The notes below the pieces were generated by a model that saw nothing but the letters and a program-made list of their open reading frames with translations, searched no databases and had not been told where the DNA came from. The position numbers were made by a program, and so were the translations under genes. Shown piece after piece: positions 35,713 through 43,168 of a stretch of DNA of 64,000 nt (position 1 is the stretch's first letter; each line of letters starts with the position of its first letter). This stretch comes from Erwinia psidii (GTDB lineage: Bacteria > Pseudomonadota > Gammaproteobacteria > Enterobacterales > Enterobacteriaceae), in NCBI RefSeq assembly GCF_003846135.1, contig NZ_RHHM01000010.1, positions 62,001 to 126,000 of the forward strand, in the 5' to 3' direction.

Positions 35713-36195
35713 TTAACCTTCCCTGTTTTCTTTGATATTCCATGTTGACTGAGTTTCCGCGCCTTTGCTTCCTGCTGCTGACTGTTTCCAGTACTGAATT
35801 TTTACCTTTGCCGCCTGAAACTGATAAGTTATGCCAATCAGGTCACGCTGGGTTGCTCCGTTGAACAGGACGTTAGTGATAAGTACTTCCTCAAGTGTTA
35901 TGCGGCAATATTCAATCTGGCTTCCTCCCGCCTTACAGACTGATATTTCTACCTTGCTGATGTGTTTGCCGTTGGAGATATAACGCATCACTCCGGGCGT
36001 GGCTTTGTCAATTTTCGCCTGAACGTTAAGGTCCCGATACTGCACTTAACCCGCGCCACCACCACCGCCAGTAGCCATATTGCCGGGCTGTGTTGCGCCC
36101 CATGTGAATGAATCAACGCCGATCCAGCCCTTGTGATTCGCATCCTGCGATTCACCCGTGATCCCTTCAATTTTAAGGAATAAATCAGTGGACAT
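35713..36195 (-). pseudogene. hcp: Type VI secretion tube protein Hcp with one internal stop
   Basis: Full-length Hcp frame of 160 codons, starting MSTDLFLKIEGITGES, GWIGVDSFTWGATQPGNM, and ending WNIKENREG, very like E. coli Hcp. Hcp forms the hexameric ring tube of the T6SS. Codon 50 is TAA (36046-36048) in the GAG-K position, one substitution from the expected AAA/AAG. The rest has no other break, so decay is recent or the stop is read through or a sequencing error. No other T6SS structural genes are adjacent. Confidence 0.88.
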
Positions 36196-36276: not shown

Positions 36277-37073
36277 ATGGACAACTATCTCGACCGAAAC
36301 AAAGACCGCAATTACTTTCTCACGATGGCAAATCTTGAGGCAGCAGCGCTGGCCTCCACTGCGAATTATGTTTCTAATATTCATCTGAAGGATGGATTTA
36401 CTCAGATGGCTTTTCAGGATGATGTGCAGCGCTTCATTGATGCACAATTGAGCACCATCCGGTCTTCCAGTTGAGACTCAGAATGCCAGCAATGCCTTAT
36501 TCACCTGCAAGAGGAACATAAAAACTTGTCCATACAGGATCAGATGCTGCGTTCCGGGCAGGCCGCTCTCCACGCCTCTGTTCAGTTCATCAAGAGTGAT
36601 AAAGTCTGTCACTATGTTATTAACGGTGTTGGCATTGTGCCTGGTAGCCTTCAGGTAATAGCAGGTGTCGGAGTTACAGAAGCATCTTTAGCCACAGGAA
36701 TGGTATTCGGCGCCGATTTGGTGCTTTATTAGTCGCTCATGGGGCTAACAGCGTCCAGGAGTCAGCATTAAATTTATATTACGGTGTAGATGACTCACAA
36801 GGCTTTATGAAGAAAGCATACATAGCTGGGGCAGAGTTTCTGGGGTTTGATCAGAAAACAGGTGAACTGGCTTATAGCATCATGGATTTAGGGCTTTCCG
36901 CATACGGAATGGGTAGGCTCATAATAAAACCAGAAAGCTGGCGTCTGTTCAGAGACCTACCAACTGATTATGTCAGGGGAATAAAAGAAATGAGTCGGTT
37001 TGATTTAGGCGTTGAAGTTTACAATGAGTCAATGACTATAAAATCACTATTGGAAAGCGATGATAAGAAGTGA
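36277..37073 (+). pseudogene. DUF4225-like protein, broken by a stop and a frameshift
   Basis: Three open pieces form one gene. Piece 1 starts MDNYLDRNKDRNYFLTMANL with AAGGG upstream and runs to TGA 36472-36474. The same frame continues (CLIHLQEEHKNLSIQDQMLRSG, VINGVGIVPGSLQVIAGVGV) to about 36715, where one base is lost. The frame FGALLVAHGANSVQES then resumes, reaching MKKAYIAGAEFLGFDQKTG and stop 37073. From memory this resembles DUF4225 proteins, of unknown function, often near type VI genes. Divergent from hcp by 81 bases. Confidence 0.65.
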
Positions 37074-38802: not shown

Positions 38803-39126
38803 TTATTCTTTTTGGGTATTATATTAAATAAGTGTTCCTGGTTGTGCTTCACTTTGTATCTGGCCTTGCCAAATAAGGCGTTGCTCATGACTGGCATGAA
38901 ATGCAGGCATACCAGGGCATTACATTCACTTGAACAAATCGGTCGATTTATAACCAGTTTGTTCAGGTTAGCGCTATCAGGAACCGTTATTTAATATCAG
39001 CGTATTTTTAAATGATATTTACGATATCGCCAGTTTGCTGCCAAAAGTTAGTGCCAGCACCACTCTGCCGGGCATTTGTAGATGAAAGGCCCGATGCCCC
39101 AGGCACCGGGAAGAGCTTCCCTGATG
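38803..39126. other. Gene-free stretch in the prophage remnant
   Basis: About 320 bases between the tail fragment and the repressor 3' end. No frame with family resemblance or good ribosome-binding site was seen. Confidence 0.5.
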
Positions 39127-39816
39127 CTATCCGTGACGACGACACTGCTGGGACTGACTCAGGATCACTCTGCCAGCAACATGCAACATTGCCATCTCAT
39201 CTTCTGAAATTGACCACTCTCTGTAGCGGGGATTATCTGAAATCACCAGCAGCTCTGACTTCACTTTTTGCAATCTTTTTACAAACATATCGCCATTGAA
39301 ATCGAAAACATAAATGCCATCGCCATCGAAAAATGACACATTTACATCGACGAAAATCAGATCGCCTGGTTCGATAGTCCCCTCCATGCTGTCCCCCCTC
39401 ACGTTAATCAACTTAACGCTGCCTTCAGGTTTATTGCCAAAAATTATGCTGGCTTCTTTACGGACATATTCTATGGAACGTATAACCTGAACCATTTCCC
39501 TGGCCGGAGAGCCCTGACCTGCACTGGCTGAAACATCAAGAAGATCAACACGAAACACATCATCTCTCCCCATCCCGGTTAATGAACTGGCACTGTATGG
39601 ATTTACAGTATCACTGGGTTCTCCTGATGAGAATAGCTCAGAAATTGGTACTGAGAGTGCATCGGCAATTTTTTGTAGCAGATTGTCACTGTAACCCTGC
39701 CTGCCACGCTCAAGGCGTGAAAGATTACCCACGTCGCTGTCAACCAGCAGCGCGAGTTCATTTAAAGTCAGGTGCTTCGCTTTACGAAGCTGTCTGATAC
39801 GTTCTCCAGGTTTCAT
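39127..39816 (-). CDS. CI-type phage repressor, S24 self-cleaving family
   Basis: 229 residues, apparently intact. N-terminal helix-turn-helix (LTLNELALLVDSDVGNLSRL, about 16-40), linker, then LexA-like peptidase with Ala-Gly cleavage site in SASAGQG, catalytic Ser in RGDSMEGTIEPGDLIFVD and Lys in GDMFVKRLQK. Such repressors self-cleave with RecA filaments, so SOS would release repression. Palindromic operators lie just upstream. Cro, excisionase and replication genes expected beside it are missing. Confidence 0.9.
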   Translation of the reverse strand: MKPGERIRQLRKAKHLTLNELALLVDSDVGNLSRLERGRQGYSDNLLQKIADALSVPISELFSSGEPSDTVNPYSASSLTGMGRDDVFRVDLLDVSASAGQGSPAREMVQVIRSIEYVRKEASIIFGNKPEGSVKLINVRGDSMEGTIEPGDLIFVDVNVSFFDGDGIYVFDFNGDMFVKRLQKVKSELLVISDNPRYREWSISEDEMAMLHVAGRVILSQSQQCRRHG

Positions 39817-39834
39817 TGGGTTGTTACACCTCTG

Positions 39835-39900
39835 TTATGCGTAATGCACAAAACTTCCTTGCGGTTTTTGATTATGATTACTAATATGCGTAATACGCAT
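39835..39900. promoter_or_regulatory. CI operators and divergent phage promoter
   Basis: A 15-base near-palindrome ATGCGTAATACGCAT (39886-39900) and a second copy with one good half, TATGCGTAATGCACA (39836-39850), lie between cI and the lysis cassette. A rightward promoter fits: TTGATT (39868-39873), 17-base spacer, TAATAC (39891-39896) inside the palindrome. Repressor on the operator would cover the -10. Confidence 0.7.
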
Positions 39901-40100
39901 TAAATGTCGTTCCTGCTTCAGTGGATGCTGACGTACTGGTGTTCAGGTTATTCAGCATCATGAAATAGCTGAATGAGTATACGCATATTTTGCGATTTTG
40001 TGCTGTTCGTTCTGGTCAGGTGTTCGTCTCCGGGCGTCACATCCTGATATCAGTCAGTCTCAGCGGGTTTACCTACCGCCTGCCACGTGGAGAGGATGCT

Positions 40101-40568
40101 ATGAGTCAAATCGTTGCGCTGTTGAAATTTGAAGAAGGTTATCGTGATGTGCCCTTTATCGACACGCAGGGCTATCCCACCGTAGGGTGCGGCATCAAAA
40201 TCGGACCGAAAGGTGCTCCGCTGACCAGTTATATCTTTCGTATGCCTGCCGTGGTTGGTGAGCTGTGGATGCAGACGCTGGTGATGAGCAAAATTTATGA
40301 TATGAAACAAAAGCCTCTGCTGGTGGAAGCGCTGACGCAGTGTAACCAGCCTCGCACCGACATTCTGTACAGCATGGCTTACCAGCTTGGGGTTGATGGC
40401 CTGGTAGCGTTCCGGCAAATGTTGGCTGCCGTCAGCCGGGGGGATTTTTCTTCTGCGGCTGACAATATGCTTAACAGTCTGTGGGCAAAACAGACGCCGG
40501 AAAGAGCAAAACGTCATGCTGCGGTAATGCGCAATGGCTGCTGGGACACTTATCGGGGGTTGCTATGA
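40101..40568 (+). CDS. Phage endolysin, T4-type lysozyme (GH24)
   Basis: 155 residues from ATG 40101, which has GGAGAGG upstream. The GH24 triad is visible: Glu11/12 in KFEEGYRD, Asp21 in FIDTQG, Thr27 in YPTVGCGIKIG. It cuts the NAM-NAG bond of peptidoglycan. No signal peptide, so it depends on the holin that follows with a 4-base overlap. Intact in an otherwise degraded prophage. Confidence 0.88.
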   Translation: MSQIVALLKFEEGYRDVPFIDTQGYPTVGCGIKIGPKGAPLTSYIFRMPAVVGELWMQTLVMSKIYDMKQKPLLVEALTQCNQPRTDILYSMAYQLGVDGLVAFRQMLAAVSRGDFSSAADNMLNSLWAKQTPERAKRHAAVMRNGCWDTYRGLL

Positions 40569-40924
40569 AATTTATTTTTTATCTCGGTGCAATTCTGTTG
40601 GCCATTATCGTTTTGATGTTGGTCAGACGATACAGTGCACTTGAATTTGTGCGACACGCAAATCTGCTGTTTAAAACATGGTCGGTATGGCTGGCTTCAC
40701 TGGGTTCCGCGCTCGGTGCCTGGGTAGGGTCGTTTCCTGATTCAGCCATGCGTGCCTGGCAACTGCTTCCTGCGGATGTGAAAGCGATTATTCCGCAACA
40801 TTATCTCGGCATGATCGGTGCATTTATGGTGGCTATGGCCGTGATCGCACAGTTTATCCGGCAGCCAGCCCTGGCAGAACAGCGGCAACAACTGGAACAG
40901 CCCGCCAACCTGAGCCGCCAGTAA
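40565..40924 (+). CDS. Phage holin
   Basis: 119 residues. An N-terminal transmembrane helix (FYLGAILLAIIVLMLVRR), a middle amphipathic or membrane region (WSVWLASLGSALGAWVGS) and a C-terminal helix (YLGMIGAFMVAMAVIAQFI), then a Gln-rich tail. Position between lysozyme and depolymerase and its topology indicate a holin. ATG 40565 overlaps the lysozyme stop (ATGA). Confidence 0.75.
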   Translation: MKFIFYLGAILLAIIVLMLVRRYSALEFVRHANLLFKTWSVWLASLGSALGAWVGSFPDSAMRAWQLLPADVKAIIPQHYLGMIGAFMVAMAVIAQFIRQPALAEQRQQLEQPANLSRQ

Positions 40925-41071
40925 AGCGTAATCATGTCGCGGCAGTCTGCCCGTACACGGATGCCAAATGGTTGTAGAGAATTTTTCCCTTTCAGAGCGT
41001 TTTGCATTCGCTTTGTCATAACAAGCCCACAAGGGCTAATCGCATCACCTGCTATCCATCTGGAGGTCATC

Positions 41072-42823
41072 ATGATCGAAGTAAATTGCTTTGCTGATTT
41101 GAGAACCACCGTACCAACCAAAGCGGGGGATATCGCTGCCCTCAAACGCTACTACGATAAAGATTCCAGTTTTCATGGTGGGGGCGACTTTGTTGGTTTC
41201 CTCGGTACGCCCACGCTGGCTGATGACAGCGGCACCATCGCGAAAGGCAGTGGCTTTTACTGGAAACGCATCATCAATGATACCGACCAGGTTAATCTTT
41301 ATCATTTTGGTGCCAGGGGGGATGGAACGACCGATGACAGCGATGCGTTCAAACGAATGCTTACGTGGTCACAGAGCTATGACAGCATTGCCAAAGATAT
41401 TGGTGTCCGCTTTCCGGCCGGTAAATTCCTTATTTTTCCGATGGATTTGAGCGCCAGTGAAATTCCCTGTTTTGCACTCTATGGCGATGATTCTCCTTAT
41501 GGCGTGTTGCCGCGCACAACCATCATCTCTGATAAATCTGCCAATACGGTATTCAAAGTGAATGCCCGGCGCAGTGTTATTCAGGGAATAGCCTGGAACG
41601 GTCAGGCGTCTGCCGACACCACAACCAATACCGGTGCGATTACCGCTGACATGCTGTCGAATGTTCAGCCATTCTTTGAAAATATCACCATCGAGGGAGA
41701 ATTTGTGCATGTCCACTGTTTCCGTGCGCAATACAATGGTGGCACTGTCATTAAGCTGTTGGACACACTGGATACGCGTTTCAATCAGATTTATACCCAG
41801 AACACCTATGCACGGGTTTTTGATGTCAACTGGTCAAACTCTCCCAATGGCGTCTGGGATCATGCCACGGCAATTGAGTTATCCAACGCCAATTTTCAGT
41901 ATGGCTATGGCGATGCAACGCTGATGATGCCCCGTCTGACGCAGGGGGTTATTCGGAATGTCTGGATAGAGCACACCCGCTTTCCCGGCGATCTGAGTAA
42001 CGGCCAGTGGATAGTTGACGCACTCAGCGTGGAAGACTGTGATAATGCCCTGTCAATGAATAACAGCCGGGTACTGATTCGCCAGCTTAATCTTCAGGCG
42101 GGTTCAACGGTAACTAATGACTCGACTGCCGATAGTTGGCTTTCCGGCTATGAACGTGGCTGGCGTCGTGACGAGAATTTTGGCACGGTGATGACGGGTT
42201 CAATGAAAGCGGGCTGGTACAGTGGCTTCAGGCTGAGCAACAGCTCAACAGCGGATAAATGGTTCCGCATCGGTAAATTCACCTTTCCCAAGGTAAACCA
42301 GCAGTGGACACTGGAAATCATCAGCAAACTGTCCACGGCCAGTCCATCAGGGGTCGCTGCTAACCCGTTACAGGCGGTTTCTTCCGGTGTGACTTATCTT
42401 AATCTGCAACGCTGTGCCAGTGCGGTGGCTGCCGATATGTTTCATCGTGGTCTGAGCGCCGTGGTGGATGTGAAGTATAAGCCCAGTTACTCAGATATTG
42501 TTGAAGTGTGGGTGAAGTTGAAAGCGGGAAGTGGTGACACCATGTTTAACGTCAGGTCAACCGGACCGACCCGTTTTGATGCCGGGTCCTGTTCTCTCTT
42601 TTCACCCGACCTGTCAGAAGTGAGCGATGAAACGACTATCGGTACTTCGACGCCTAATGCCCGGCTGAGTTTTCATAACGGCATTGCCGGTTTGGGGGCA
42701 AATGAAAAGGGCGTAGTCACTCTGGCAACCAGCGAGGCCGTGGCCCCTTCAGGCACTGTGCCATCAGGATATATCACCCTTAATGTTAACGGCACGGATC
42801 GTAAATTTCCATATTATACCTGA
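41072..42823 (+). CDS. Phage tailspike / exopolysaccharide depolymerase
   Basis: 583 residues; ATG 41072 with GGAGG upstream, longer frame from 40934 rejected. YHFGARGDGTTDDSDAF (about 78-93) is the entry motif of right-handed beta-helix pectate-lyase-like tailspikes; a beta-rich body follows, ending in GYITLNVNGTDRKFPYYT. The order lysozyme-holin-depolymerase is the same as in Erwinia amylovora phage phiEa1h, whose enzyme degrades amylovoran, so activity on the host's or a related EPS is likely. No tail-assembly genes remain. Confidence 0.78.
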   Translation: MIEVNCFADLRTTVPTKAGDIAALKRYYDKDSSFHGGGDFVGFLGTPTLADDSGTIAKGSGFYWKRIINDTDQVNLYHFGARGDGTTDDSDAFKRMLTWSQSYDSIAKDIGVRFPAGKFLIFPMDLSASEIPCFALYGDDSPYGVLPRTTIISDKSANTVFKVNARRSVIQGIAWNGQASADTTTNTGAITADMLSNVQPFFENITIEGEFVHVHCFRAQYNGGTVIKLLDTLDTRFNQIYTQNTYARVFDVNWSNSPNGVWDHATAIELSNANFQYGYGDATLMMPRLTQGVIRNVWIEHTRFPGDLSNGQWIVDALSVEDCDNALSMNNSRVLIRQLNLQAGSTVTNDSTADSWLSGYERGWRRDENFGTVMTGSMKAGWYSGFRLSNSSTADKWFRIGKFTFPKVNQQWTLEIISKLSTASPSGVAANPLQAVSSGVTYLNLQRCASAVAADMFHRGLSAVVDVKYKPSYSDIVEVWVKLKAGSGDTMFNVRSTGPTRFDAGSCSLFSPDLSEVSDETTIGTSTPNARLSFHNGIAGLGANEKGVVTLATSEAVAPSGTVPSGYITLNVNGTDRKFPYYT

Positions 42824-42841
42824 AGGATCCAGTGACTATTG

Positions 42842-42867
42842 ACCGCCCGTACAGGGCGGTTTTTTTG
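42842..42867 (+). terminator. Terminator after the depolymerase
   Basis: ACCGCCC-GTACA-GGGCGGT followed by a T run, 19 bases after the stop. It closes the lysozyme-holin-depolymerase unit. Confidence 0.9.
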
Positions 42868-43050: not shown

Positions 43051-43168
43051 TGATTATTTGGTCGAATATGATTAAAGATATCAAACAGTAGCGACTGATA
43101 AGATCAGGGTTGAGATGCTAAGTCGTTGGTCCGTAAAATGGGCCATAAATGCAAATCAGGAGAATGCC

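Follow-up and report, generated by a model that had tools for sequence, protein, structure and literature searches.

Sequence evidence for a probable phage-type repressor switch on the promoter of a predicted lysozyme, holin and exopolysaccharide depolymerase operon in Erwinia psidii

What does a phage-type repressor do when it stands directly before lysis genes and an exopolysaccharide (EPS) depolymerase gene on a bacterial chromosome? The question is raised by a unit at positions 39090-42861 of the window, the 64,000-nucleotide stretch of Erwinia psidii DNA analysed here (contig NZ_RHHM01000010.1, positions 62,001 to 126,000), in which the repressor gene cI reads leftward and lysozyme, holin and depolymerase genes read rightward between two terminator-like stems, all as open frames (Table 1). 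No further gene was seen between the operators and the lysozyme gene of this unit, and the lysis and depolymerase genes share one strand, a single conserved promoter and a terminator-like stem after the depolymerase. The unit is predicted to be a phage-type repressor switch sitting on the promoter of a lysozyme-holin-EPS depolymerase operon and, by the comparisons below, is real, conserved and selected. We consider it probable that the host has kept a phage immunity switch as the regulator of a lysis-and-depolymerase operon.

Over seven genomes, the interval between cI and the lysozyme gene aligns poorly except for a near-invariant block, CTAATATGCGTA..RCGCATTA, at 39881-39902, in which the -10 hexamer overlaps a palindrome. 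With the row of genome G028 dropped, since it is identical there to that of G029, 19 of the 22 columns of this block are invariant vs 36 of 269 elsewhere in the interval, and its longest invariant run (12 columns) was reached in 0 of 20,000 column shuffles. No other stretch of the interval comes close to this promoter/operator block in conservation. TAATAT is present in all seven rows (39882-39887 in the window), CTTGC is invariant and the spacing from the -35 element to TAATAT is 16-17 nucleotides. The hexamers proposed in the first-pass annotation, TTGATT-N17-TAATAC, were dropped because the conserved pair, TTGCGG (39859)-N17-TAATAT, is shifted relative to them. Of the operators it had placed at 39835-39900, the palindrome at 39886-39900 is backed by conservation, and the second site, at 39837-39851, is less perfect. 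In the genome, an 18-base operator pattern is matched exactly once and, with two mismatches, at two more sites (the reversed control pattern has seven). Repression by CI at an operator overlapping the promoter is a prediction well supported by the layout, and the direct repressor control proposed earlier agrees with a conserved operator and promoter that have no intervening gene in all seven genomes.

We searched 37 genomes of the genus, one per species, by DNA search and then by protein mapping. The repressor-cassette junction, which might have been unique to this assembly, recurs at the same chromosomal site in six other Erwinia (G011, E. mallotivora; G026; G007; G028; G029, Erwinia sp. ErVv1; and G017). 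At this site, which we call type A, cI, lysozyme, holin and depolymerase genes are all complete in the window genome (G000) and in four relatives (G026, G007, G028 and G029); the holin gene of G011 contains a stop, and G017 has lysozyme debris and no holin. Other genomes carry remnants there, namely the depolymerase alone (G019, E. rhapontici; G003, E. aphidicola; and G004), cI alone (G014) or broken pieces (G035 and G025). A holin pair on the left and the equivalent of the gene at 43115 flank the unit in five of the six relatives (not G011), and in eight genomes examined for it these flanks are separated by 248-561 bp, the site being empty. In a family-wide search of 198 genomes, six including the window genome passed E 1e-50, three of them (G206, G056 and G181) at an identity of at least 57% and the other two at 34-38%. 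In G206, from another genus of the same family, a cI of 51-53% identity, with the same operator and promoter, immediately precedes a depolymerase gene of 68% identity (locus L111), and lysis genes are missing; by eye, this cI-operator-depolymerase unit (L111 2843-6329) adjoins apparent glycosyltransferase (gtr-like) genes.

To examine selection, we calculated the ratio of non-synonymous to synonymous substitution rates (dN/dS) by the Nei-Gojobori method (NG86) for pairs against the window copy. Values were 0.05-0.09 for cI (six pairs), 0.06-0.10 for lysozyme (five pairs), 0.11-0.15 for holin (four pairs, G011 being left out for its stop) and 0.04-0.07 for depolymerase (computable in three of nine pairs), and those of the core genes ldcA and emtA were 0.14-0.16 and 0.04-0.08. 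Because dS of the cassette genes is >1 or saturated, the absolute values are rough. The dN/dS check that the first-pass annotation had suggested for the four genes came out as purifying selection, at about 0.04-0.15 with dS >1, and its description of lysozyme, holin and depolymerase as intact holds, since all are open frames with profile matches. Codon trees (IQ-TREE) of cI, lysozyme, depolymerase and emtA all separate G000 and G011 from the other genomes and set G026 and G007 (and G017 where present) apart from G028/G029, and trees of dinI, icd and ldcA deviate only within the G026/G007/G017 group. The ten type A depolymerases form one clade (support 99/99), and G011 is the nearest type A relative of the window genome. 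The fixed site and the gene trees together point to a unit inherited with the host rather than circulating as a phage. As in a domesticated prophage gene set, we thus find vertical inheritance, purifying selection and missing phage functions, with the holin tree as the exception.

The same survey bears on a poison-antidote explanation, under which CI is retained because its loss would trigger lysis and the unit has no useful product. It is true that every type A-site locus with an intact lysozyme gene also has cI, and that cI is missing from the site in five genomes with lost or broken lysozyme and holin genes (G019, G003, G004, G035 and G025), although a related cI lies at another locus in G003 and G025. 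However, G017 and G206 have cI but no intact lysis genes, the only cassette gene in G014 is cI, and purifying selection on lysozyme, holin and depolymerase would be left unexplained, so we regard this explanation as very unlikely.

Table 1. Features of the repressor-lysis-depolymerase unit, in window positions
Feature	Position	Strand	Basis or remark
Terminator-like stem behind cI	39090..39110	-	stem scan
cI, CI-type repressor, helix-turn-helix (HTH) + S24, Ala99-Gly100, Ser143, Lys180	39127..39816	-	profile matches
Second, less perfect operator adjoining cI start	39837..39851	.	TGCGTannAcGCAAA in relatives
Conserved promoter TTGCGG-N17-TAATAT, PR-like, poor consensus match	39859..39887	+	7-genome alignment
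Main operator ATGCGTAATACGCAT, overlapping the -10 hexamer	39886..39900	.	alignment and genome pattern search
Leader of ~200 nt, inverted repeat ATTCAGC/GCTGAAT at 39950-39974	39895..40100	+	without boxA
Lysozyme (endolysin), GH24-type	40101..40568	+	Pfam and PHROG
Holin, DUF7940, PHROG 1356, start overlapping lysozyme stop (ATGA)	40565..40924	+	profile scans
EPS depolymerase, 583 aa, WceF/tailspike-like, no signal peptide by eye	41072..42823	+	PHROG and homology
Terminator-like stem closing the unit	42841..42861	+	stem scan

A second cassette, type B, is found at another site in 17 Erwinia genomes and in G206 (L048 3794-10792, with equivalents in L041, L049-L060, L062, L063, L076 and L112). 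Its order is repressor, divergent Q (PF06530, 149 bits), lysozyme, holin, Rz-like spanin, depolymerase, mostly an open reading frame (ORF) of at least 87 residues, and, in convergent orientation, a MASE1-GGDEF (diguanylate cyclase) gene whose linkage to the cassette is kept. Repressor, Q, lysozyme and depolymerase frames are open in 18/18 cases and holin and spanin-like frames in 17/18; the missing parts are the ORF of at least 87 residues in G015 and G001 and both holin and spanin-like ORF in G025. Median dN/dS, taken over pairs with a proportion of synonymous differences (pS) of 0.15-0.7, was 0.085 for the repressor (133/153 pairs), 0.122 for Q (42/153), 0.14 for lysozyme (56/153), 0.235 for holin (86/136), 0.31 for the spanin-like ORF (119/136) and 0.118 for depolymerase (103/153). 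At least one complete repressor-lysozyme-holin-depolymerase unit is present in 17 of the 37 genomes (16 of type B plus the window); a second cassette was not seen in the window genome, which gave one DNA match and one lysozyme match only. In three type B loci the holin frames extend to 173, 260 and 514 aa (L060, L062 and L063), with long Pro/Ala/Ser/Thr-rich C-terminal stretches. A third arrangement occurs in L061, L113 and L115, where an S24-like repressor lies on the same strand ~1 kb before lysozyme, holin, spanin-like and depolymerase genes; L061 has an integrase-like gene downstream, and the depolymerase of L115 is in two pieces.

Both cassettes appear to carry antitermination parts. All type A loci except those of G000 and G011 have a boxA-like sequence and a hairpin (a nut-like site) in the leader and, left of cI, an extra operator followed by a small arginine-rich ORF, an arrangement shared by G206. 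In type B, the main conserved part of the repressor-Q interval is a boxA-hairpin block, and the N-like ORF beyond the repressor matches PHROG 271 (9e-7 in G007, 0.0055 in G020). The two type A N-like ORFs that were scanned matched no PHROG family, and their name is based on arginine-rich sequence, operator and position, the query having come from one of the counted loci (L111). Of 26 loci, 23 have both an N-like ORF and a nut-like site and three have neither (type A of G000 and G011, type B of G015). These 26 comprise eight loci of type A or G206 and 18 of type B; G014 was left out (cI only, N-like ORF unmatched), and spurious-looking N matches far from cI in G011 (E 1e-4) and G028 (0.009) were excluded. 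Scored against what we take to be the boxA consensus, G026 (8/12) equals the N-less G015 (8/12), with G000 and G011 at 7/12; the nut-like site of G026 was therefore counted by eye, from GCTCTTTA and the hairpin, as was the degenerate site of G017. On the trees N and nut seem to have been lost jointly on two separate occasions, which suggests that the pair works. With both missing in the window lineage, the rightward promoter PR would read directly into the lysozyme gene.

The repressor itself matches HTH_3 and Peptidase_S24 (74.6 bits). It has the full set of residues of a RecA-inducible CI/LexA-type (S24) repressor, and the first-pass annotation was right that HTH, Ala-Gly cleavage site and Ser/Lys pair are all kept. 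Given these residues, RecA-stimulated self-cleavage of the window CI is likely, and Ala-Gly is retained in seven of the ten rows of the repressor alignment. A lone intact cI at the same chromosomal site (L068 6162-6842), 62% identical and with a Thr-Gly cleavage site, stands without matches to the other cassette genes. Elsewhere in Erwinia, loci with cro and N-like genes have a cI 77-78% identical and operators that share the TGCG half-site. Such loci would suit the idea that CI confers superinfection immunity by repressing incoming phages with the same operators; this would account for cI only and not for lysozyme, holin, depolymerase or the conserved rightward promoter, and we consider it highly improbable. 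Where a cro-like gene accompanies a related cI (L042, L069 and Cronobacter phage ENT47670), the genes and sites run cI, PR, cro and a boxA-like site, and so display the parts missing in the window.

The products of the predicted operon would open the cell and attack its EPS. The lysozyme has a weak match to Pfam Phage_lysozyme (24.3 bits, cut-off 22.3) and a PHROG endolysin match at 3.8e-13, and the holin matches a PHROG holin family at 8.6e-18 (profile scans were done on the frame from 40568, the ATG at 40565 overlapping the lysozyme stop), so that a holin and a peptidoglycan hydrolase would be made from one predicted operon. The depolymerase matches PHROG EPS depolymerase (4e-176) and is homologous to WceF (PDB 6tgf; query residues 4-582, E 1.5e-99), from which its fold is already suggested; its beta-helix part shares sequence homology with WceF/AmsF. 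It begins at about WceF residue 167 and lacks the twin-arginine translocation (Tat) signal and N-terminal part: no signal is visible by eye in its N terminus, MIEVNCFADLRTT, and MKRRELITGFSSILAALSVSSFSSQA occurs close to the N terminus of an AmsF-like protein encoded in this genome (L116). WceF carries a Tat signal, and its authors argue that enzymes of this type are most probably inactive in the cytosol (PMC7949094). For an enzyme without a visible signal, cell opening by holin and lysozyme would be the simplest exit. The phage enzymes of phiEaP8 and Yoloswag are 47-50% identical, of similar length and also signal-less (phiEaP8, at 49.8%, is the closest among the matches listed), and we therefore rejected the short form as proof of domestication. 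More distant depolymerases, 53-56% identical, occur in L071-L074 and L114; a Q-like gene or fragment lies nearby in L071-L074 and was not matched in L114.

Several observations weigh against a maintained, SOS-triggered lysis switch. The conserved hexamers match the promoter consensus at only 3/6 and 4/6 positions, and a promoter scanner listed neither this pair nor the one first proposed (two promoter-like sites in 4 kb vs a shuffled mean of 5.0), so the case for the promoter depends on conservation. The cleavage site is Glu-Gly in the type A repressors of G028/G029, Thr-Gly in G014 and Ala-Ala in G206, and in type B a Tyr replaces the S24 lysine in 18/18 repressors, the serine being kept; judged by these residues, RecA-stimulated cleavage is not constant across the cassette system. 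With the type B spanin-like ORF as query, the surroundings of the type A cassette gave no match in the window or L031-L036 (one match of 16 residues at E 0.009 in L033 is far from the cassette), and the one Rz (PF03245) of the window genome is on another contig. If lysis were essential, neither the lysozyme debris and missing holin of G017 nor the stop in the G011 holin would be expected, and the three species with the depolymerase alone at the type A site show that the enzyme persists without lysis genes. Six of the nine depolymerase pairs are dS-saturated, and the holin tree, built without G011, conflicts with the other trees in that it joins G007 with G028/G029.

Some of these observations would fit a different explanation, in which only the depolymerase is under lasting selection, for EPS remodelling, and the repressor and lysis genes are relics being lost. 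Besides its persistence in G019, G003, G004 and, without intact lysozyme or holin, G017, the depolymerase remains with Q and MASE1-GGDEF at the type B site of G016, G018, G032 and G002, where repressor, lysozyme and holin were unmatched, and no other gene of the cassette has a dN/dS as low as that in its three computable pairs. Yet lysozyme and cI have dN/dS of 0.05-0.10 at dS >1 and are open in 6/6 and 7/7 of the type A loci that carry them in full, type B lysozyme and holin are open in nearly all loci as given above, and a depolymerase with no visible export signal would need another way out. We therefore find this explanation unlikely and prefer a switch retained by the host.

The first-pass annotation called the locus a reduced prophage, a name that fits only in part: fragments of integrase, Hcp, DUF4225 and Lom-like genes lie on its left flank, blastn found no match to this flank in the fetched part of that interval in the six relatives, and the unit lies at a fixed site. 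The integrase, replication and structural set of a functional lambdoid prophage was not found between icd and cI, where four scanned ORFs match parts of families only and the rest are short. Two of the fragments in this interval (35713-36045 and 36807-37073) belong to a type VI secretion system (T6SS) Hcp and a DUF4225 protein and are not obviously phage. The holin pair left of cI (PF16931 and PF05449) occurs at the icd-dinI locus in many Erwinia (L032 7795-8446, L033 7433-8084, L097 7782-8433 and others) and was not found in the window, in L031 or in the G011 locus. We rejected it as a cassette member because it also occurs in genomes without the cassette and PF16931 was unmatched in the window genome. 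Likewise dinI (43694) and the ORF at 43115 were rejected as members, since both occur in cassette-less genomes, as do the genes from 43115 onward. The terminator that had been placed at 42842 was recovered by our stem scan, together with the one behind cI (read 39110-39090); eight such stems were found in the scanned region vs a shuffled mean of 4.5 (sd 2.2), so a terminator-like match is weak on its own.

The closest analogies for how the window unit would work are type 10 secretion and pyocin-type lysis, the cargo here being an EPS depolymerase. Type 10 secretion system (T10SS) lytic cassettes, such as ChiWXYZ of Serratia marcescens and YenLC of Yersinia entomophaga, are described as using spanins in lysis (PMC10847048). 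As there, holin and endolysin genes are coupled to a cytoplasmic cargo enzyme, and lysis of some cells is here proposed as the export route; in contrast, the regulator in the window is neither ChiR nor RoeA but an S24 repressor of phage type that comes with operators of its own, the cargo is an EPS depolymerase, a spanin was unmatched in type A and release is a prediction. Type B, with its Rz-like spanin, fits the T10SS better. Explosive cell lysis by a pyocin endolysin in Pseudomonas aeruginosa biofilms, as reported in PMC4834629, likewise has a phage-derived endolysin and lysis of a sub-population (the latter proposed here); unlike it, the window unit has no phage-tail genes and includes a matrix-degrading enzyme in the operon. 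The WceF/AmsF EPS glycosidases (PDB 6tgf, PMC7949094) are homologous to the cassette enzyme, and WceF has the Tat signal and N-terminal part of which the latter has neither. Cronobacter phage ENT47670, L042 and L069 resemble the unit in cI, OR/PR layout and operator half-sites, but their PR leads to cro and boxA, in ENT47670 on to replication genes, whereas in the window it leads straight to lysis genes. In the records of Erwinia phages phiEaP8 and Yoloswag, unlike in the window unit, neither a lysis gene nor a repressor is annotated within 2.5 kb of the depolymerase. A description of such a cassette in Erwinia was not found in the open-access literature among the matches listed; PMC7317114, the likeliest candidate, deals with temperate phages and virion-associated depolymerases, and PMC13217557 uses a phage-derived enzyme.

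If the host has indeed kept the switch, CI would hold the promoter shut, and its loss, through RecA self-cleavage where Ala-Gly, Ser and Lys are intact (as in the window species), would start a ~3 kb transcript. Holin and lysozyme would then open the cell, and the released depolymerase would cut EPS around sister cells, the SOS trigger and the release by lysis being steps that we infer. Relatives would add antitermination by N and nut (other type A) or by N, nut and Q (type B); in the window lineage, CI would control output directly. More tentatively, and with less confidence than in the switch itself, we suggest that many Erwinia may have, as chromosomal switches, one or two lambdoid circuits stripped to repressor, N and nut (and, in one, Q), which do nothing but lyse the cell and set free a soluble EPS depolymerase. 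Such release would be a public good bought at high cost, which may loosen slime for the dispersal of sister cells or strip the EPS receptor of EPS-dependent phages, and the window would show an end state that has dropped antitermination. A few systems are known in which former phage genes export enzymes and toxins by lysis, and host regulators control them; in this case the decision circuit of the phage itself seems to be retained across much of an EPS-dependent genus, with one version at each of two sites. With N and nut seemingly lost together twice, the cassettes would offer a testable case of a phage switch pared down to a host switch, and they may connect the turnover of EPS with altruistic lysis in easily cultured bacteria.

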